The translations under genes and the position numbers were made by a program. DNA of 23,416 nucleotides. Source: a virus. Location: IMG/VR virus record IMGVR_UViG_3300030104_003697, positions 1 through 23,416 of that record; one strand, given 5' to 3'. Below, one piece after another: positions 6,339 through 19,010 of this stretch; the stretch's first letter is position 1, and each line of letters opens with the position of its first letter. The notes beneath the pieces are model-generated. The model saw only the letters and a list, made by a program, of their open reading frames with translations, did not search any database and was not told the origin of the DNA.

Positions 6339-6368
6339 TTGGAAATTCAACGATATCACAGGTATAAT
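6339..6368 (+). promoter_or_regulatory. candidate rightward (late) promoter
   Basis: TTGGAA (6339-6344), an 18-bp spacer and a consensus TATAAT (6363-6368), facing terS. A perfect dyad TCGTTG-GAAATT-CAACGA (6336-6353) covers the -35 element and could be an operator different from the CACA/TGTG type. Confidence 0.55.
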
Positions 6369-6428: not shown

Positions 6429-6917
6429 ATGCCGGAAATAAAACACAATTTGAATGATAAACAAAAGCATTTTTGCGATGTTTACCTTAACAATAATCGG
6501 AATGCCTCCGAAGCATACCGTCAAGCATTCGGAACAGATAAGGCGGAATCAGTTATAAATGCGTCGGCTTCTCGATTGTTAAGAAATGTTAAGGTGCGTG
6601 ATTACATTGTTAAGATTCAGCAACAAAACGCACAAATTACGCAAAGAAAACAAGATATCGACCGTGATTTTCTGATAACGGAATACCTCGATGTGTTGAG
6701 ACTGTCGAAAGAGACGAAACAACTATCAACGGCACGGCAAACGCTCGACAGTTTGGCGCATCTCGCTGGACTGTGGACAGATCGCCGAGAAGTAACGACT
6801 AATATCAACGTAGACGCTACGCTCCGACAGCTAGAGACCGCCGATCTATTACAGGCACTAAAATCTAGTAACACAAACGCCATTGACGGGGAATTTTACG
6901 AAGTAAACGGCGACTGA
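6429..6917 (+). CDS. terS: terminase small subunit
   Basis: 162 residues. The N-terminus has the signature of small terminases of the Terminase_2 type: LNDKQKHFCDVYLNNNRNASEAYRQAFG, then INASASRLLRNVKVRDYI, a helix-turn-helix-like DNA-binding region. Residues 65-115 should form the oligomerisation helices and the C-terminal end is acidic. The protein recognises phage DNA and recruits the large subunit. No Shine-Dalgarno is obvious before the ATG. Codon use changes within the gene: the 3' part uses CGA, CGC, ACG, GCG and CTC often, unlike the AGA-rich genes after it. A non-coding block of 530 bp separates it from the next gene. Confidence 0.88.
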   Translation: MPEIKHNLNDKQKHFCDVYLNNNRNASEAYRQAFGTDKAESVINASASRLLRNVKVRDYIVKIQQQNAQITQRKQDIDRDFLITEYLDVLRLSKETKQLSTARQTLDSLAHLAGLWTDRREVTTNINVDATLRQLETADLLQALKSSNTNAIDGEFYEVNGD

Positions 6918-7033
6918 ATCGGTGTGCGCCTCGTGCGTGGGCGATGCGTGCGTGTCGTGCGTGTGTGCGTAGGGGTGTCACGAGAATTTTCGCCGATCGC
7001 AACCCGGCTGCCGCCCCCCGCCATCGAAGATGG
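6918..7033. other. GC-rich GTGCG-type tract and triloop hairpin
   Basis: After the terS stop comes a strongly GC-rich, alternating purine-pyrimidine stretch made of repeated GTGCGTG-like units (about 6921-6970), then a C-run and a small stable hairpin CCATC-GAA-GATGG (7021-7033). No coding frame is convincing. The composition contrasts with the AT-rich genome. A packaging (cos/pac) or replication site is possible. Confidence 0.5.
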
Positions 7034-7097
7034 TGTGTACAACTCCAAACCAATAATGTGCGTTTTTGCCATTCTATGCTCGTTACCGTTATAGCTA

Positions 7098-7221
7098 CAG
7101 TGATCGTCACTGGTAGTCGTCATTATCGTCACTCCAGCTACAGATCCTGAAGTGATGACAGAGCTTTAAGCGATTGTGTCATCATGTAAGGATAGTGACG
7201 CTTAATCACTACCGTCACTAT
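7098..7221. repeat. cluster of nested inverted repeats with AGTGAY core
   Basis: Three perfect dyads follow one another: CAGTGA-TCG-TCACTG (7098-7112); TGATGACA / TGTCATCA (7153-7160, 7177-7184) with 16 bp between; ATAGTGACG / CGTCACTAT (7192-7200, 7213-7221) with 12 bp between. Additional single CGTCAT and CGTCACT copies lie at 7117-7132, and CGTCATTTTCGTTAC follows the last dyad. The repeated short core suggests multiple binding sites for one protein, such as TerS, an origin-binding protein or a repressor. Confidence 0.6.
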
Positions 7222-7260
7222 TCGTCATTTTCGTTACTGTATTTTTCTTAAATACGGTGT

Positions 7261-7307
7261 TAGTGATATATACCCCCTTTAGGGGGGGTATATCACTACG
7301 CTTTTTT
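7261..7307 (+). terminator. strong Rho-independent terminator
   Basis: TAGTGATATA pairs perfectly with TATATCACTA (7289-7298), extended inside by CCCCC against a G-run with a TTTA-like loop, then ACGC and six T. It ends transcripts that come through terS and the repeat block. The outer arm carries the same AGTGAT core as the dyads before it. From 7308 to 7449 I see no gene and no clear promoter. Confidence 0.8.
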
Positions 7308-7449
7308 CTTTGTTACTTTCTTTTTTATAGGAACTTATTCTCTATAGTGGTTGTTTTTTCAACAATGCTTTGTTATTTTAGGGAATAGGGGCGGAAATAC
7401 GGGACTGCACCTCCTTCGACATCCGTCCCTTTAGTGTTCAGGAGATGTA

Positions 7450-7716
7450 ATGGCAGCAAAAAGGGACCCTAGGTTAAAAAGAGCTGGCGTATCAGGTTTC
7501 AATAAACCAAAAAGAACTCCCAGCCATCCTAAGAAGTCTCATGTTGTTGTTGCAAAATCAGGTGGACAGGTAAAAACGATTCGATTTGGGCAACAAGGCA
7601 AGACTGGTGACAGAACCATGACTCCCCGTGCTAAATCATTCAAGGCTCGACACGCAAAAAACATTGCTAGAGGCAAAATGTCAGCTGCGTATTGGGCAAA
7701 CAAGGTGAAATGGTAA
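7450..7716 (+). CDS. basic phage protein, conserved SHVVVAK...SAAYWANKVKW family
   Basis: 88 residues with a high Lys/Arg content. It contains KSHVVVAKSGGQ, IRFGQQG, then KSFKARHAKNIARGKM and ends SAAYWANKVKW. I recognise this combination from small structural-module proteins of marine podovirus-like phages; function is not established. The charge and position before terL suggest DNA or RNA binding, possibly within the virion. AGGAG lies just before the ATG, and the stop overlaps the next start as TAATG. It is the first gene after the strong terminator, so a promoter should lie in 7308-7449, but none is clear. Confidence 0.75.
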   Translation: MAAKRDPRLKRAGVSGFNKPKRTPSHPKKSHVVVAKSGGQVKTIRFGQQGKTGDRTMTPRAKSFKARHAKNIARGKMSAAYWANKVKW

Positions 7717-7874
7717 TGGCAACTAAAAAAAGACCGGGGCTGTACGCAAATATCCAAGCCAAGAGAAAAAGAATCAAGGCAGGGAGTGGTGAAACTATGA
7801 GGAAGAAGGGACAGAAAGGTAGACCCACTGCAGCACAATTCCGGAGAGCAGCAAAAACTGCTAAAAGGAGATAA
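7716..7874 (+). CDS. basic phage protein, GLYANIQAKRKRI family
   Basis: 52 residues from the ATG at 7716, which overlaps the previous stop (TAATG) and has AAGGTG upstream; the longer start at 7692 lies inside the previous gene. The sequence GLYANIQAKRKRIKAGSGE, then MRKKGQKGRPTAAQF and a run of Lys/Arg is a pattern that I know from many marine phages as a tiny basic protein of unknown role. More than a third of the residues are basic. It probably binds nucleic acid; whether it enters the virion is unknown. Confidence 0.75.
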   Translation: MATKKRPGLYANIQAKRKRIKAGSGETMRKKGQKGRPTAAQFRRAAKTAKRR

Positions 7875-7876
7875 CA

Positions 7877-8176
7877 ATGCCTGAAGGTAAAGGTACATAC
7901 GGAAGAAGATTAGGTCGCCCTAAAAAGAAAAGACCAATGGGTGGAGCTACGAAAAGACCAATGCGTGGAACAGGGCGTGCACCTAAGCGTGGTGTTGCAA
8001 CTGGAGCAGGACGTGCAGCTAGAGGAGTTGCTGGTGCTGCAATAGGTATAGCAGGCAAAGCAATAAAAAGAAAGCCTATCCCACAGGTGGCTAAAAGAGC
8101 AAGTAAGGCTACTGTTGGTTCAATGATGAAAAAAAGAAGAAAAGCTAGAACTACTAAAAGATCATCTTACCTATAG
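7877..8176 (+). CDS. protamine-like basic protein
   Basis: 99 residues, extremely basic and low in complexity: N-terminus MPEGKGTYGRRLGRPKKKRP, an Ala/Gly/Arg-rich middle (GAGRAARGVAGAAIGIAGKA) and a C-terminus of Lys/Arg runs. AAAGGAG lies before the ATG. The composition recalls DNA-condensing proteins, and the Ala/Gly centre could be a short membrane-seeking or flexible segment. It is the third of three adjacent basic genes in front of terL, which suggests a common role in genome packaging or condensation; this is inference. Confidence 0.72.
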   Translation: MPEGKGTYGRRLGRPKKKRPMGGATKRPMRGTGRAPKRGVATGAGRAARGVAGAAIGIAGKAIKRKPIPQVAKRASKATVGSMMKKRRKARTTKRSSYL

Positions 8177-8184
8177 GAATATAA

Positions 8185-9696
8185 ATGGTTGCATTAACCG
8201 ATGCACACAAAGAGGAAGCAGTCAGGAGAATAGAGAAAGAATTTGCTAGAAGAAATTTTATCTCCCCTGACGGAGAGCAACCTGACTTTCTTGACCATGT
8301 AAAGATTCTAGAAAGATCTCAATTACATTCAGGAAAAGCAGGGGGTGCTGCCCCATTCCAAAAATGGGACTACATCAAAGACCTAGCAGCTGCAATAACA
8401 GAGAACAGATTAGTCACAGTTCTAAAAGCAAGACAGCTAGGATTCTCATGGACAAGTGCAGCTTATGCAGCATGGTTATTAACTTTCAGTCCCGGCACTA
8501 ATGTGCTAATGATCTCCAAAGGTCAGACTGAAGCATTCAGCTTATTGGATAAAGTAAGGTTCATTTTGAAGAACCTCCCACAGGAGTGGCAACATCCACT
8601 ATCCCCTGATTCAAGATCAGAAATAGGGATACCTTCACTGGACTCAAAGGTATTGGCACTTCCATCAACTGAAGATGCAGGTCGTTCAGAAACAGCATCT
8701 GTAGTCATACAGGATGAGGCTGACTTTCATGAATACCACGCTCAGAATTACGCAGCCGTAAAACCGACTATTGATGGAGGGGGTCAGATGATTATGGGAT
8801 CTACCTCCAATAAAAGAAAAATGTCATCTCTGTTCAAAGAACTTTACAGAAATGCTCCTGACAATGGATGGAAGACTGTTTTCATTCCTTGGAGTGCAAG
8901 ACCGGGAAGAGATGAGAAATGGTACGAAGCAACTATGGATTCTGTTCCATCTATGGATTTACAGGGTATGAGTCCCGAGCAATACATGGAACAGGAGTAT
9001 CCCACTGAGGAAACGGAGGCATTATCACCACCAAGAGCGCAAAGCATTTTCGACAGGGACATGATAATTGGAATGGAAGATTACTGCATAGAACCAATCA
9101 GACAGGTTGGGGCAGGCAACATCTATCAGGACGTAAGGGCGGGCAAGAGATATGTCGCAGGTACGGATGTCGCAGCGGGGGTTGGAATGGATTACTCCGT
9201 CACCGTCATAGTTGATATCAACACAGGGTATGTAGTAGCAGATCTAGTCACAAACACAATGCAACCTGAAGACTTTTCTGTTGCATCCATGGACCTGCTT
9301 GAAGAATACAGCAACCCTGAATGGGCTATAGAAAATAACTTTTCAGACACAGTTCTGACTGTAGCACGAGATGAAAACTACCCAAGACTTTTCAGAAGAA
9401 GAGTCGGTAGAGGTAGAAACCAAAGAAGAGAATACGGCTGGAAAACTGATCGCATGAGTAGACAGGCTCTGTTCGATGAACTTAGAGCTTCTTTTAATGC
9501 AGGTCAACTTACCATCCCTAACCGATATGGCTTAGATGAATTTTCTACCATTATTGCGTCTCCGGGAGAAAAGCCACAGGCAATGGGTGGCGCTCACGAT
9601 GACTACGTAATGGCATTAGGAATTGCACTTATGTGCAAAGAAGAAAAAGGAATGGTTAGTAACGGAAAAATAATAAGACTACCAGCATTCGCATAG
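8185..9696 (+). CDS. terL: terminase large subunit
   Basis: 503 residues. The N-terminal ATPase domain has a Walker A-like motif KARQLGFSWTSA (81-92), Walker B VVIQDEAD (173-180) with the catalytic Glu next to the Asp, and a coupling motif GSTSN (205-209). The C-terminal RNase H-like nuclease has Asp328 in AGTDVAAG, Glu383 in AIENN and the HDD triad end at 471-473. It drives ATP-dependent DNA translocation into the procapsid through the portal and cuts the concatemer. Length fits complete large terminases. AGGA lies before the ATG, and the portal gene follows after 10 bp. Confidence 0.92.
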   Translation: MVALTDAHKEEAVRRIEKEFARRNFISPDGEQPDFLDHVKILERSQLHSGKAGGAAPFQKWDYIKDLAAAITENRLVTVLKARQLGFSWTSAAYAAWLLTFSPGTNVLMISKGQTEAFSLLDKVRFILKNLPQEWQHPLSPDSRSEIGIPSLDSKVLALPSTEDAGRSETASVVIQDEADFHEYHAQNYAAVKPTIDGGGQMIMGSTSNKRKMSSLFKELYRNAPDNGWKTVFIPWSARPGRDEKWYEATMDSVPSMDLQGMSPEQYMEQEYPTEETEALSPPRAQSIFDRDMIIGMEDYCIEPIRQVGAGNIYQDVRAGKRYVAGTDVAAGVGMDYSVTVIVDINTGYVVADLVTNTMQPEDFSVASMDLLEEYSNPEWAIENNFSDTVLTVARDENYPRLFRRRVGRGRNQRREYGWKTDRMSRQALFDELRASFNAGQLTIPNRYGLDEFSTIIASPGEKPQAMGGAHDDYVMALGIALMCKEEKGMVSNGKIIRLPAFA

Positions 9697-11750: not shown

Positions 11751-14142
11751 AGCAAAAGAAAGGTTAGGTATTGCAGATATATCAAGAGAACAGGAAATTC
11801 TAGATTTATGGAATGCCCGTCTTAATCCTCCCGGCTCGCCTAGTAAAATCGGTGATGTTCAGTGGACTGTTGACGATTTAAATACAAGAAATGAATATAT
11901 TAGACTTCTTACAAATGCTCGAAACCTTAATCTTCAAAGTGAAATTGAAAACCAACTAGAAAATATAGCTTATATTGATGGGGAAGCAAACTTCACTTTA
12001 TTTGATTTAGATCCTGAAACTATTTATAACACTGACGAAGTAACTGAAATCCAAAATGAAAAGTCTGACACCTCACTTATTTTAAAAGAACCTGTAACTA
12101 TAAATGATGTTTTTTCCCTAAATGAAGAAATATCTAGGGATGTTTTAAAAGAATGGGAAAGTCAGGGGTATGTCGGAACAATAGCTGAAGCTAAAACTTT
12201 TGTTTCAGAAAATCTTTTTTACAACACTGAAGTTGACTTGAAAGGAAACACAAGAATTACTAGTGAATATCGAGCTGGAGTTACAGAAAAAGAAACCCTA
12301 GCTTTCTCTGTTTTAAATGGAGTCAATACTGAATTTAGAAATTCTCCTGACAAACTTACAAAGAACAGTAAATTTTGGGCGGCTGTAGAAAAAGGTGTTG
12401 AGAGTGGATACTACCCTGTTCAAATTAACGCATTACTCGAAGGAAATCTAAATACAATTGAAGACGCTAACAGGTTTTTGGAAAACCTTGAAATAGACTC
12501 AAGTGAACTCAATGCACTTTATTCAGATAAAGGTGGGTCAAAAGGAATACTAGATAAACTTGATTCAATTGGAGATTCTTTTGTTGAAGATTTGAATCAG
12601 GTAATTGAAGACACTAAACAAGCTGCGAGAATATCAGGTGATACAACTGCTTTTTATGCGGATCTACCGGAAATTATGTCAGCTGGTGAAGGACCTGAAC
12701 TTCCAAGAATTGGTGAAAAAGAACGTACAGATCAACAGCTTTACAACAACTTCAAAGAGTCAGGTTGGAATTTCAATAAATCTATTGAAGACAACGTGAA
12801 AGCCATGATGGCTAAAAACGATTTCACTAATCCTAACAATAATAATTATCCACAAGAATGGAGAGAAAATTTTACTGATAAAGATATAACAAGCTCACTT
12901 GGTAAGTGGCAAAGAGATTTAATTAAAAGAATTGAAGACTCTGAATTTGGTAAAAAATATACAGATGCATTTAATGATCCTAAGAAAAACCCATCACTAG
13001 AAATGGGTTTTGATATTTTTAATTTAGTTGACGGTGCAACTGGGGATAATGACTCAATTGTACTCACAGAAATTCAGGATGTTTTAGATGCGCAAAAGGC
13101 TATTGAGGATAAAAAGAACAGTGCTGCAGAACTTCAGAAACAACTTGAAGATGAAATGGAAGCCCGAGCCAAATTCAGGGCTGACACAGAAGATGTCGAT
13201 TTCAGAGAAGCACAAGCTGCAAAATTTCTTAAACAAGACCCTAGATATAGGGGCATTCTTGAAGGAGAAGCTGGAACTCTTTTCCTCAGAGAAGTCGCAA
13301 ACAGTGTATCGGACTTTGAATCATTTGATGATTTACTTGCGGATGATGATTTTGCACAGCAAGTTGATTACCTAGCTGGTCGTATGAACCCTGATGAGGT
13401 TCCGCCTCTTAGTGGGCAAGCAGCTGCAGAAATAGGGGGGATTGCCGGAGAACCCGGACTTCCCGGATTAATAGTTCGTGATCCATTTCCTGAACCTACT
13501 GACTTTGACTTAGAGTCGATTTCACCGCAGCTCAGACAGATAGCTGTTGACAGACCTGAGTATGCACAGTTTTTATTAGAACAAATTCAATTGCCCGGAT
13601 TCAACGAACAATTTAGAAAAGTGTCAGCTCCTCGATTGGATGAAGAAGGATACTTAGCTGCTATCGGAGGTGGAGCGCAAGACGGAACAGACGCATTTGA
13701 ATTACAACAACGAAAGCTGGACACAGCTCAAGAAAGATATGACGCAATCATAGAGTCAGGTGAGGGCTACGTTGATAATAAGCCAACTGAAGAATTGTTG
13801 GCAGAAGCAGAACGACTAGAAGAATCAAGAAACAGATATCAAATGGAAACTGGTGTTGATCCACTGACTGGTGAAAGAGGGGCTGTTGGAGAAGCATTTA
13901 TGCCGGGTGGTTTTGCAAGAGAAATGGCTCGTGATCGATTTACTATAGACGCAACTACTGCTGAAGGTTTTTTCAAACAACAGTTACCGGGATTCCAATC
14001 TAGATTTGAAGAGACTCCGTTCTTTAAGTTAGAGCAAGACAGAATTAAAGAGACAAAGAACAGAGAAGAACTAAAACGTAGACTGCCATTGTTAAGAACT
14101 GGTGGTCGTGGACGAACAATTGTAACTACAGGTAGAAGATAA
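11743..14142 (+). CDS. large hypothetical virion-type protein, TTG start
   Basis: 799 residues, starting at TTG 11743 with AGGAGA upstream. The protein is acidic over most of its length, with predicted coiled coil near residues 449-490 (AIEDKKNSAAELQKQLEDE). A Pro/Gly-rich loop follows (GGIAGEPGLPGLIV) and the C-terminus turns strongly basic (RLPLLRTGGRGR). There is no known enzymatic motif. Between portal and the 1622-residue protein, it is likely a structural or internal virion component. It overlaps the next gene as TAATG. Another possibility is a tail or ejection accessory protein. Confidence 0.7.
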   Translation: MAEAKERLGIADISREQEILDLWNARLNPPGSPSKIGDVQWTVDDLNTRNEYIRLLTNARNLNLQSEIENQLENIAYIDGEANFTLFDLDPETIYNTDEVTEIQNEKSDTSLILKEPVTINDVFSLNEEISRDVLKEWESQGYVGTIAEAKTFVSENLFYNTEVDLKGNTRITSEYRAGVTEKETLAFSVLNGVNTEFRNSPDKLTKNSKFWAAVEKGVESGYYPVQINALLEGNLNTIEDANRFLENLEIDSSELNALYSDKGGSKGILDKLDSIGDSFVEDLNQVIEDTKQAARISGDTTAFYADLPEIMSAGEGPELPRIGEKERTDQQLYNNFKESGWNFNKSIEDNVKAMMAKNDFTNPNNNNYPQEWRENFTDKDITSSLGKWQRDLIKRIEDSEFGKKYTDAFNDPKKNPSLEMGFDIFNLVDGATGDNDSIVLTEIQDVLDAQKAIEDKKNSAAELQKQLEDEMEARAKFRADTEDVDFREAQAAKFLKQDPRYRGILEGEAGTLFLREVANSVSDFESFDDLLADDDFAQQVDYLAGRMNPDEVPPLSGQAAAEIGGIAGEPGLPGLIVRDPFPEPTDFDLESISPQLRQIAVDRPEYAQFLLEQIQLPGFNEQFRKVSAPRLDEEGYLAAIGGGAQDGTDAFELQQRKLDTAQERYDAIIESGEGYVDNKPTEELLAEAERLEESRNRYQMETGVDPLTGERGAVGEAFMPGGFAREMARDRFTIDATTAEGFFKQQLPGFQSRFEETPFFKLEQDRIKETKNREELKRRLPLLRTGGRGRTIVTTGRR

Positions 14143-17100
14143 TGGTTGATAAAAACGAACAGTTTTTGACAGGACAAAGTTTTCAGTTAACACCAACAGA
14201 TTATGAAACTGATGAAAGCGAAGGTGTTGATGAGTCTTTACCTATTGGTGAACAAATACAAACACTGATTAATCAAAAGCAAGATCCACAAAATATGAGT
14301 AGAGCTGAACGAAGGCGCTTTGAATATAACAATAAAAAAAGAGAGCGAGAAAAAAGCACTCAAGATCGTCGTAAGTACAGAAATTACGGAAGACCTAAAC
14401 CTGACGCTGTTTACGAAAAAATCCTTGAAAAACCATACAACCCTAGAGGAATGAGTGCGCCTGACTTAAATTTGTATAGGGAAGCTCGTCAATGGTACTA
14501 CGACAACAACCCTGACGTTGTGCCGGGACAATACGGAGAAGATGCAATTGGACCTTTAACTTTATTGGGAGCAGAGCAAGAGCTTACAGCTGTGGCATAT
14601 CATTCAATAATTGAATCCCTTCCTGAAACTACTGCATTATCTACGAACAGGCAACAAAACAAAATGTCAGGTCCGCAAATACCAAATCTTTTGCATTTGT
14701 TTAAGTTTGGTGCAGAGAGATTAATGTCTCCGCCTTCAGAAGAAACTAGAGCAATCGTTAAGCAAATAAACCCGTTTGATGATGAACCAAGGACAATGCC
14801 AATAGCTGACATTATCAGAGGGCTAGATGAGGAAACACAAAAAAGACCACTGAGCGAACAAATCATTGGCGGAACGATAGTTCCTACTAACGTGCTTCCA
14901 GTTGGTTGGCTGGGAGGATTAGTTAAAACAGGTGGAAAAGTTACAAAAGCCGGAGAGGCAGCGTTTACTACCATACAACTTGCTCCTGAATTAAAAGCTA
15001 CATCAAATCACAATACTTTTAAAACTTTTGTTCAAAGTGTTCCTGATGCACTAGGCAAACAGGGCGATGATGCCTTAATTGAAGCATCTAAAAAAGGTAA
15101 AGATGAATTAGTTTCAGCAATAATGAACACACCAATTGACATTGAAGGACTTCCTGCAGGGACATTGTTTGAAGGAGATGTTCGGATTTGGTTAATGATG
15201 GGAGATAAGCCCATTAGCCTTAAAGCTTTTGGTGAAGAAACAGGAGTAGTTCTACAACAGGGAGGAGTACAAGATTCTCTTGAGAGATTAGTAGAACTAG
15301 GGTTGTTAAATAAAAGAACTACTAAGCTTGGTGCAGGAGATGAGATATACGAAAAAACTGTTGATCTAAATTCTCCTGAAGCAATAGAAGTTCTTAGGTC
15401 AACAGGTATGAAAGTAGGGGTAGGGGGAGCTGCAAGTGGGAACAAAGTAGTGTTTGGATTAAAAAGTCTTTCTAATCAAATTGACGACATCAATGTGTAC
15501 GACAGTAACATTGCAAGAAAAGTTGCATCGGGAACAGGAATTAATCCGTCCGCAGCTGCTACAACACCCGAAGCAAAAGCAAAAATAGCAGTAGCACGAC
15601 AGCAAACATCAGCAAAAGAACTTGTTGAAGTAACTTTACAGGGAAGACTTGATAGCCTTGCAGGTCGCTCGAGGGGATTGACTCATCGTTTAGGTAAAAC
15701 CATTGGTGGTTTATTTCGTGGAGGTGGTCTACCTATTAAAATAGATAAAGACGGTGTTGTAGATGGCACTGAAATGTTATGGCAGGATCTTTTTTCTATC
15801 CCGGAAGAAGTTCTTATCAGGGAATACGGAGCTGTGATTTCTGATGATGGCTTGGAATACATCAGAAGATATAGGGAAATAGTAGATGAAGTTGAGAATT
15901 TAAGAGTTGAGAATGGGCTACCCCCATTGTCAAAAGACAGAGATGGGTACTACTACATACCTAGACAAGTAGTTTCTATTGATGATGTGCAACTTTTAGG
16001 TAAAAGCAATTCACATAATGCACGGACTTGGGAAACAGCTATGGAAGCTAGAGTGGCAGGTAAAGTCGATGAAGTTACAGGAGAAATCGTAGAGTATGTT
16101 TACGAAGCAGACCCAAGAGCCACATTAGCTTCACATATGCGAGCAGCCTATGGAGAAATCATTGACGACCAGCTCACTGATTATTTAGCAAAAAATGTTA
16201 AATCATTTACCCCAACTGAGTATCTAGAAAAAATAAATCCGCAACTTATAAGCAGAACTCAGGACGCTATTAATACAGCTGCAAGAGATAAAGCTGCATT
16301 GAAAAGAGCAAGAAGGAAACTTGCTGGAGCTAAATCTCAAGCTGATTTTGATTTTGTTGACTTTGTTAAAGACGGTGTTTCTAAAACGAGGGTAGGAGCA
16401 GTAAAACTTACAAAAGAACAATCCGCTATGTTAAAAAACATAAATAAATTGCAAGATGACGTAGATACCGCAGCGGCAAAATTTGCAAAATCAAAAGCTA
16501 CTCAGAATCAATTAAAAAAAGAAAGATCTATTCAATTAGAAAAAATAAGAAAATCAGAAACATTAGCCGGTAAATTCTTTGGTGATGTCGGTGAAATTAG
16601 CGTCAGACAATGGCGAGGCAAAATTTACAACGACAAAGTTTTTAGAGGGATAGAAGACATTACAGGAGTTTCAGGTGCAGGTCCTATGAGGTCAGGCACT
16701 AAAGGGATATCACAAAAAGTCGGAGGCAAACTTGCATGGGGAGTCGGAAGAGTTACGGATGCTGCAAGGTTCCTAATGGCTACAGCTGACTTTGGTGCGC
16801 CGTTTATTCAAGGGCTTCCTATATTAGCAACTAATCCTAAACGATGGGCTGCAGGTACATTAAGGCATTATGGTGCTTTTCTTGATCCGTCTGTTCAAGC
16901 AAGGTATGTCGAAAACAATTACGACACATTTATAGAAATGGCTCAAAACGGAATACCGGTTGGTGACAGCGAAATGTTTGCAGCATTACAAAAGGGTCGA
17001 GGAATACCTGTTACAGGATTTCTAGACTTACTTCCTACAGCTAAAGGAGATCAGTTTTTCGGTCATGTTTTTGAATCAGCAGCTGACAGTAAAGTTTATA

Positions 17101-19010
17101 GCGTAGGTAGAAAAGCTTCAGAATTTAGAAGAAAAAGAGTAAAGCCTTTTACTAATCAAACAATGGGTAGATTTCAAAGCTCTTACAGTATGTTTTTAGC
17201 GTATAACCGAGCTGAATTATTTAAGACACTAAAACCTACATGGACAGCTGCAGGTAAAAAAGGGAATTCAGTAGCTGAATTAGCCACATATATTAATAAT
17301 TTAACAGGTGGGTTAGACGTTAAAGGGTTAGGTGTCAGTTCTTCCCTACGAGAAATTGAAAGCACATGGTTAGCATTTTCTCCAAGACTATTGCGTTCAA
17401 CAACAAGTTTAGTAGCAGACGCAATTATGGCTATTCCCGCAACAGCTACCGGGAAAGCAACAGCAAGACAAAAAGCTTCTTTCCGTGCAGTTGCTCAAAC
17501 TATTGCAGTAACACACGGAATGGCGGCTAGTGCAATATTTGCCCATGGCTTAGCAAAAGGAGACAGCATGGACAAGATTATTGACGATATAGCTGTATCT
17601 CAAAACCCTCTTTCAGGAAAAAGATATTTAAGTATTGAGATCGATGGGGAACACTATGGAGTCGGTGGACAAATCAGAGCCTTGACTCAGCTTTTGACAG
17701 GTCTTGCAGGTTCAGTAACTGATCCTACAACTCTTGCCAGCATGGATCTCCAAGAAAATCCATTCCTCAAATTTATGGCTAGCAGGGGTTCTCAGGGAGT
17801 GAGAATTACTCAAACTGTTGCAGAGGGAATTACCCCAATGGATGCTAATCCATATGTTGAAATCGAAGGACTTGGGGATATGGCACATCATTTACTCTTA
17901 GACTCCGCACCGTTTGTGTTACAGGGAATTTTTGAGGGCAGCTCAACTCCCGGCAATATAATGGCTATGACTGGAATGAGAACCAGCCCGTCAACAGCCT
18001 CGGATGATTTCAAGAGAGTATTAGAAGATGACTTTAGAAAAATGAGTGAAGAAGAACTCGCAAAGTATGGTCACAAACCGGGAAGTTTCCCCAAAAGATC
18101 CAAAGACATGAACTCTCAGTTGTACTCAAAACTTGTTCAGGAAAACGAAGAACTACAAGAGTTACGAGAAGATGTTCAAGAAGAACGACAAGAACGAGGA
18201 AGCGATCTAGGTAAATACATTGAAGCTAAAAACGAAGTAAAAAATACTAGAGATACAAATATAGCTAATGCTTTAGAAGAGGTTGGTGTCGGGAAAAAGT
18301 TGAGAGAAGCAATTTCAAGATCATACGGTGAGTATATAGATGAGGTAGATAAGATCGAGTCAGATAGTGAGTACGAGGACCTCAAAGGATTTTTTGATGA
18401 ACAAGAAGAAAGTGAAAATGAATTTAACAGAGCAGTCGAAAAGTATTTTGCTATTCTTGAAGACCCTCCTTTAGAAGATCTAGTTTGGGGTTATGACTTT
18501 AAAGAAAGAGATAAAAGAATTGAAAACATGAGGCAAGACCCTGAAATGGCAGATCATGTAGATAATATTCTAGAGTTTGTTAAATCAGGTGGTCCGCCAA
18601 TAGTACAAAAACTTAATCAAGATAGACAAGTAATGGAGCCTTACTTCAGGATTTTGGATGAAATTGTAGAAGAACAAGGTTTTGCAGAAAAATACGATTT
18701 TTGGAAAAAGAAAAATGGAGATGACCGACAAACAATGAGAGAGGGTGGAGTTCCATCAAAGGGTTGGAGTAACACAGACTCAGTAGATTTACGAAGAATT
18801 TTAGCTAAGGCTGATGAAAAGAAATTAGAGATGCGTAAAGCAGATCCTGTATTAGACGGTTTGTTGTGGAAATGGGAATACAATCCTACTCCCGCCAACT
18901 TAAAAGTAAAGCTTCTCAAAAAAGAAATTCAATATTCATCCGGAGGATTGATAGGAACAAACAGAGGTGAAATCGATAATTTGCTTAGAAGGGATGGGTT
19001 CAATTGGTAA
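14142..19010 (+). CDS. giant internal virion / ejection-like protein (1622 aa)
   Basis: A single uninterrupted frame, longest in the window. Residues 1-100 are charged and disordered. A hydrophobic Gly-rich segment lies at about 243-265 (VLPVGWLGGLVKTGG), a Lys-rich coiled coil at about 769-805, then a segment ATADFGAPFIQGLPIL (about 880) and NPLSGKRYLSIEIDG with LLTGLAG (about 1154-1190). The last two resemble the C-terminal module of large polyvalent or internal virion proteins of phages, in which a similar stretch ends a helical membrane-like region. A charged coiled coil fills 1335-1460. It probably travels in the capsid and enters the host with DNA; no lytic transglycosylase or protease motif was seen. 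Confidence 0.7.
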   Translation: MVDKNEQFLTGQSFQLTPTDYETDESEGVDESLPIGEQIQTLINQKQDPQNMSRAERRRFEYNNKKREREKSTQDRRKYRNYGRPKPDAVYEKILEKPYNPRGMSAPDLNLYREARQWYYDNNPDVVPGQYGEDAIGPLTLLGAEQELTAVAYHSIIESLPETTALSTNRQQNKMSGPQIPNLLHLFKFGAERLMSPPSEETRAIVKQINPFDDEPRTMPIADIIRGLDEETQKRPLSEQIIGGTIVPTNVLPVGWLGGLVKTGGKVTKAGEAAFTTIQLAPELKATSNHNTFKTFVQSVPDALGKQGDDALIEASKKGKDELVSAIMNTPIDIEGLPAGTLFEGDVRIWLMMGDKPISLKAFGEETGVVLQQGGVQDSLERLVELGLLNKRTTKLGAGDEIYEKTVDLNSPEAIEVLRSTGMKVGVGGAASGNKVVFGLKSLSNQIDDINVYDSNIARKVASGTGINPSAAATTPEAKAKIAVARQQTSAKELVEVTLQGRLDSLAGRSRGLTHRLGKTIGGLFRGGGLPIKIDKDGVVDGTEMLWQDLFSIPEEVLIREYGAVISDDGLEYIRRYREIVDEVENLRVENGLPPLSKDRDGYYYIPRQVVSIDDVQLLGKSNSHNARTWETAMEARVAGKVDEVTGEIVEYVYEADPRATLASHMRAAYGEIIDDQLTDYLAKNVKSFTPTEYLEKINPQLISRTQDAINTAARDKAALKRARRKLAGAKSQADFDFVDFVKDGVSKTRVGAVKLTKEQSAMLKNINKLQDDVDTAAAKFAKSKATQNQLKKERSIQLEKIRKSETLAGKFFGDVGEISVRQWRGKIYNDKVFRGIEDITGVSGAGPMRSGTKGISQKVGGKLAWGVGRVTDAARFLMATADFGAPFIQGLPILATNPKRWAAGTLRHYGAFLDPSVQARYVENNYDTFIEMAQNGIPVGDSEMFAALQKGRGIPVTGFLDLLPTAKGDQFFGHVFESAADSKVYSVGRKASEFRRKRVKPFTNQTMGRFQSSYSMFLAYNRAELFKTLKPTWTAAGKKGNSVAELATYINNLTGGLDVKGLGVSSSLREIESTWLAFSPRLLRSTTSLVADAIMAIPATATGKATARQKASFRAVAQTIAVTHGMAASAIFAHGLAKGDSMDKIIDDIAVSQNPLSGKRYLSIEIDGEHYGVGGQIRALTQLLTGLAGSVTDPTTLASMDLQENPFLKFMASRGSQGVRITQTVAEGITPMDANPYVEIEGLGDMAHHLLLDSAPFVLQGIFEGSSTPGNIMAMTGMRTSPSTASDDFKRVLEDDFRKMSEEELAKYGHKPGSFPKRSKDMNSQLYSKLVQENEELQELREDVQEERQERGSDLGKYIEAKNEVKNTRDTNIANALEEVGVGKKLREAISRSYGEYIDEVDKIESDSEYEDLKGFFDEQEESENEFNRAVEKYFAILEDPPLEDLVWGYDFKERDKRIENMRQDPEMADHVDNILEFVKSGGPPIVQKLNQDRQVMEPYFRILDEIVEEQGFAEKYDFWKKKNGDDRQTMREGGVPSKGWSNTDSVDLRRILAKADEKKLEMRKADPVLDGLLWKWEYNPTPANLKVKLLKKEIQYSSGGLIGTNRGEIDNLLRRDGFNW

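Follow-up and report, generated by a model that had tools for sequence, protein, structure and literature searches.

The DNA analysed here (the window) comprises an entire linear record of IMG/VR, 23,416 bases long, from a phage with the gene order terS, non-coding block, three small basic proteins, terL, portal-position protein and capsid protein. The early genes of the window point leftward and include a GP88-family gene; a tyrosine integrase gene is found at positions 267-1622. The small terminase subunit gene, terS, occupies positions 6429-6917 of the plus strand (Pfam Terminase_2, E 1.2e-13; PHROG 51, E 2e-17) and is preceded by a rightward sigma70-like promoter, TTGGAA-18-TATAAT, at 6339-6368. 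The start of the late operon, also on the plus strand, comprises p88, p52, p99 and terL (7450-9696, terL at 8185-9696), and the structural gene region further downstream contains an open reading frame of 1622 aa (14142-19010). A TerL search of IMG/VR yielded about 105 relatives, of which 80 were kept; contigs covering the terS side were sought with single terS queries. TerL is highly conserved within the family (72-83%) and at most 29% identical to that of the best-ranked GenBank phages, and no close prophage was found among GTDB genomes; the family is thus uncultured as far as GenBank and GTDB show. One near-complete circular relative, G001 (L120-L122), carries, as judged by eye, genes resembling a C5 cytosine methyltransferase, a VRR-NUC protein, a RecA/RepA-like ATPase and an HTH repressor.

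An earlier note on this DNA had pointed to the non-coding block between terS and the late genes, and all features that it listed are present at the places given. These are a GTGCG-type alternating tract (6923-6970, unstranded), a C-run (7014-7019), a triloop hairpin CCATC-GAA-GATGG on the plus strand (7021-7033), three perfect dyads (CAGTGA-TCG-TCACTG, 7098-7112; TGATGACA/TGTCATCA, 7153-7184; ATAGTGACG/CGTCACTAT, 7192-7221) and a terminator-like hairpin whose outer arm carries AGTGACG/CGTCACT just as the dyads do. The dyads are above chance, with four of at least 6 bp observed versus 0.3 in dinucleotide shuffles. RTCACT words occur nine times in the 393-nt block versus 14 times in the remaining 23 kb, and AGTGACG/CGTCACT is found four times in the block and not once in the other 23 kb of the record. 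A genome-wide repressor or stoperator network was rejected because the core words are restricted to the block. The comparison with relatives that the note had called for gave a divided answer: the C-run and the hairpin belong to a conserved module, whereas the GTGCG tract and the dyads are lineage-specific, the former being confined to the window's own lineage and absent from L005, L006, L007 and other relatives. The parts of the block thus differ in their histories, and its division into two rests on about 85 IMG/VR relatives.

The conserved part is a module of 95 bp (6970-7065, plus strand; nhmmer E 1.7e-14 in the window), defined by aligning the terS-to-late-gene regions of 19-24 lineages. 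It is nearly free of indels (0-2 nt across 95 bp) while its flanks diverge past alignment, and the spacing of its elements is near-fixed. Its three boxes lie on the plus strand. Box A (GGGGTGTC, family GGRGTSYC, 6972-6979, with G6973, G6975 and C6979 invariant) is separated by about 20 variable bases from box B (GCAACCCGGC, family GCGAACCGCG, 6999-7008, with A7002 invariant and C7004 and G7006 present in 22 of 23). Between box B and box C (TACAACTCCAAACCAATAATGT, family GTACAACTCGCAACCAATTTTGT, 7038-7059, with C7050 and C7051 invariant) the sequence is first GC-rich and then either forms a hairpin or is rich in AT. The triloop hairpin keeps its position, with differing arms, in about half of the lineages. 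RNAalifold predicted no pair on the module alignment, which has no consensus RNA fold. A structured RNA was rejected: Rfam gave no family, and the repeats behind the module surpass shuffled sequences in folding only in part of the lineages, those of L011, L012 and L057 being among the exceptions. With the nhmmer profile, nearly every close relative shows a single module per contig (E values reaching 5e-19), always upstream of terL, so that the module presents the single site in or adjoining the terminase genes that is expected of a pac. A profile search of 2.4 Mb, including loci fetched by a partial module pattern, gave neither a second copy nor an outside match. The partial pattern has 113 matches across IMG/VR, and no match from outside the family passes the full model. 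Within the family, only the right half of the module is weakly detectable in L056 and L057 (E 2 and 0.35), and the profile gave no significant match in L059 and L075.

The position of the module relative to its neighbours is informative. In L043 a leftward three-gene cluster stands between terS and the module, which remains about 330 nt before terL, indicating that the module belongs to the late-operon side. Its distance to the late -10 box ranges from about 110 nt (L039, L043) to 830 nt (L011), as expected for a stand-alone site rather than a promoter-bound operator. We read the module as a site that is recognised as DNA and that marks the upstream border of the late operon. It remains conserved while TerS drops to 30-60% identity, and it does not track TerS type. 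The reader of the module may thus be TerL or a host factor, a point that counts against a pac bound by TerS.

Behind the module lies a variable insert (7066-7260, unstranded) that in the window holds the three dyads with their AGTGAY core. Its length varies from about 40 to 800 nt across lineages, and both its sequence and its presence depend on the lineage: L012 and L015 have no repeats, and in L039 and L043 the insert is nearly missing. The core of the repeats is AGTGAC in the window's own lineage and L006, TGTCCTTA in L005 and L008, TGTCCTG in L011 and L062, TAACG in L032 and GTGTAACC in L056 and L057. Pairwise comparisons place mosaic boundaries at the 3' end of the module and in the middle of the terminator hairpin. 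L105 and L011 have arrays and hairpins that are 93% identical over 444 nt, although no alignment is obtained between their terS genes; L040 and L062 have the module region in common (79%) but not the array; and the match of L007 to L005 starts in mid-hairpin, with the array and the outer arms unmatched. These comparisons speak against the proposal that the dyads are repeated sites for one protein such as TerS, and TerS binding to the dyads was dropped as the leading interpretation: the arrays vary independently of TerS and are missing in L012, L039 and L043, near-identical arrays adjoin non-aligning terS genes, and similar modules carry different arrays. Conservation of the dyads had been named beforehand as a check that could refute the proposal, and the dyads are not conserved among the relatives. 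We regard the array as an exchangeable, lineage-specific insert to which a different factor, of the phage or the host, probably binds.

A conserved element accompanied by repeats that are specific to the lineage is also the arrangement of an iteron-type origin of replication, in which the array would supply initiator iterons, with specificity set by lineage, and the module would hold sites for fixed host or phage factors. The restriction of the repeats to the block and the near-fixed spacing within the module agree with an origin, as does the location of the block at the divergence of early and late transcription, near the minimum of the cumulative GC skew. The GC-skew test suggested in the earlier note thus finds a turning point close to the block, but this minimum coincides with the flip of gene orientation and is confounded by it. 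The repeats, moreover, are not kept in relatives: they are absent from L012, L039, L043 and others and so dispensable there, and inspection of the G001 genes by eye revealed none that looked like an initiator. We consider an origin unlikely.

The terminator-like hairpin, TAGTGATATATACCCCCT-TT-AGGGGGGGTATATCACTA, spans 7261-7298 on the plus strand and is followed by T6 at 7302. A GC-rich hairpin with a subsequent T-run is the hallmark of an intrinsic terminator, and the structure is conserved in most lineages. Since the T-run starts 3 nt past the stem base, the terminator is good but not ideal, and a consensus terminator scan of the window missed it. The T-run opens a conserved pyrimidine tract, TTTTTTCTTTGTTACTTTCTTTTTT, at 7302-7326 of the plus strand. 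As a unique mark of the locus this tract was discarded because its pattern also matches unrelated phages. In such phages (L085, L086, L087, L093, L096, L099, L102, L106, L108, L112) an alternating GC tract adjoins a minus-strand pyrimidine tract with a length of about 150 nt; in several of them a terS-like gene (23-29% identity) is located at a distance of about 100 nt from the pyrimidine tract. The arrangement recalls the GTGCG and pyrimidine tracts of the window. In a different phage (L101, positions 180-292, and L109) a long hairpin with the arms CGTGTTATTAC/GTAATAACACG adjoins the same pyrimidine tract motif. Downstream of the tract in the window is a sigma70-like late promoter on the plus strand (7351-7379), with TTGTTT at 7351-7356, a spacer of 17 nt, TATTTT at 7374-7379 and a TG extension. 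A TATTTTAAATAGGGG box is found 3' of the terminator in most lineages; it often has a TG extension, and a hexamer similar to a -35 box precedes it by 16-18 nt.

The outer arms of the terminator contain the core of the array in about half of 18 lineages (p about 5e-5 versus permuted pairings), a coupling that rests on the strongest lineages, for it is not significant (p 0.13) when four of them are left out. The motif GTG[AC][CG]TA, present in the arrays of 9 of 20 lineages (e.g. L020, L032, L033, L063) and sometimes serving as dyad spacer, occurs 14 times on the plus strand versus once on the minus strand; shuffles give 1.1. The common core, this strand bias and the presence of a terminator and a conserved promoter downstream could speak for a regulatory function in late transcription, with the module as regulatory site and array plus terminator as a regulated attenuator. 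This would be difficult to reconcile with the variable distance between module and promoter and with the absence of the array in several lineages; in addition, pairing with the array would presumably miss the GC-rich half of the terminator. We rate such a function as quite unlikely, and an RNA antiterminator formed by pairing of the array with the terminator arms was rejected because the GC-rich half would probably stay unreached. A further and similarly doubtful possibility is that array and outer terminator arms are exchanged together as a single cassette, placed between module and late promoter and having its own core in each lineage, in which a fast-evolving factor would read the core and control termination or the timing of packaging.

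A TerS profile built from 17 relatives matches the structures of Pam5 TerS and SF6 G1P (3zqp, 2cmp), and tblastn with TerS finds the TerS of ES18 and of staphylococcal phages. ES18 is a headful pac phage. The same holds for SPP1 and SF6 (PMC6316719, PMC9611059), and in SPP1 the contacts of TerS lie on either side of the region that is cut, for which no particular sequence is required (PMC9611059). G001 (41.6 kb) overlaps itself by at least about 600 nt at 88% across terS, which results in a circular map of 40.8 kb with one module copy. This map is compatible with the permuted DNA of a phage with a pac-type TerS but is not proof of permutation. Dozens of contigs read through the module; together with the circle of G001, this is expected for a pac rather than for fixed ends. 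No contig starts at 7039/7040, the cut position considered here, which counts against a cut there. The contigs L281 and L284, which come from different samples and are 81% identical, stop at positions 71 and 70 of the model, respectively, corresponding to 7039/7040 of the window. Around the block there are a dozen right-hand contig ends, for which we estimate that about 0.2 coincident pairs would be expected. As a second pair of ends (L144, L150) lies 3' of the pyrimidine tract and the terminator hairpin contains the ends of L271 and L274, the ends of L281 and L284 may reflect a sequencing or assembly effect beside a hairpin, and we take their coincidence only as a hint of a genome end in the module.

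These ends bear on the alternative that the module is a cos site, at which a cut near 7039/7040 would produce fixed cohesive ends. The module resembles a lambda-type cos in being a multi-box, GC-rich DNA site of about 100-200 bp that adjoins the terminase genes and occurs once per genome, and the GC-rich conserved core, the strongly conserved TerL and the two contigs stopping at the same base fit such a site. It differs from a cos in that most contigs with a module read through it and none starts at the presumed cut, with no sign of fixed ends, and both the circular map of G001 and the headful type of the TerS relatives argue in the same direction. Since metagenomic DNA may contain concatemers, read-through lowers the probability of a cos without reducing it to zero; we consider it very unlikely.

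A TerS similar to those of SF6/SPP1 and ES18, the circular map of G001 and the two contigs stopping at most 1 nt apart lead us to favour a packaging function, and we tentatively propose that the module (6970-7065) is a pac-type packaging-initiation site, a reading that in our estimation falls just short of an even chance. The suggestion of a cos or pac site in the block is thus plausible as far as packaging is concerned, but the conserved candidate is the module and not the dyads. According to this proposal, terminase would start packaging at the module, held by boxes A and B on one side and by box C on the other. The cut would then occur in or beside the poorly conserved hairpin or AT-rich stretch between the boxes, around 7039/7040, in a manner similar to SPP1. 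The dyad array behind the module would bind some other phage or host factor, and the terminator hairpin would stop the transcript from terS ahead of the separate late promoter. With the pac sites of SPP1 and SF6 the module would share the layout of several contact regions flanking a sequence-free cut; the TerS family is homologous, and headful packaging would fit the map of G001. The location is different: the pac of SPP1 overlaps promoters and the start of terS, whereas the module lies after terS and stays with the late operon where terS is separated from it. The pac of P22 likewise overlaps the terS gene, and the downstream position of the module counts against a pac.

Only for a small number of model phages is the packaging site known, and such sites are difficult to spot in a sequence. 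In an uncultured marine phage family, a module of 95 bp that a profile can detect offers a concrete place at which DNA ends can be sought in reads from virions, and it allows testing which protein reads the packaging signal when TerS diverges fast but TerL remains similar. The array, which can be swapped and is matched by the arms of the terminator, poses a puzzle separate from the packaging site; if repeat array and terminator stem do turn over together, this would represent a new kind of phage control element.
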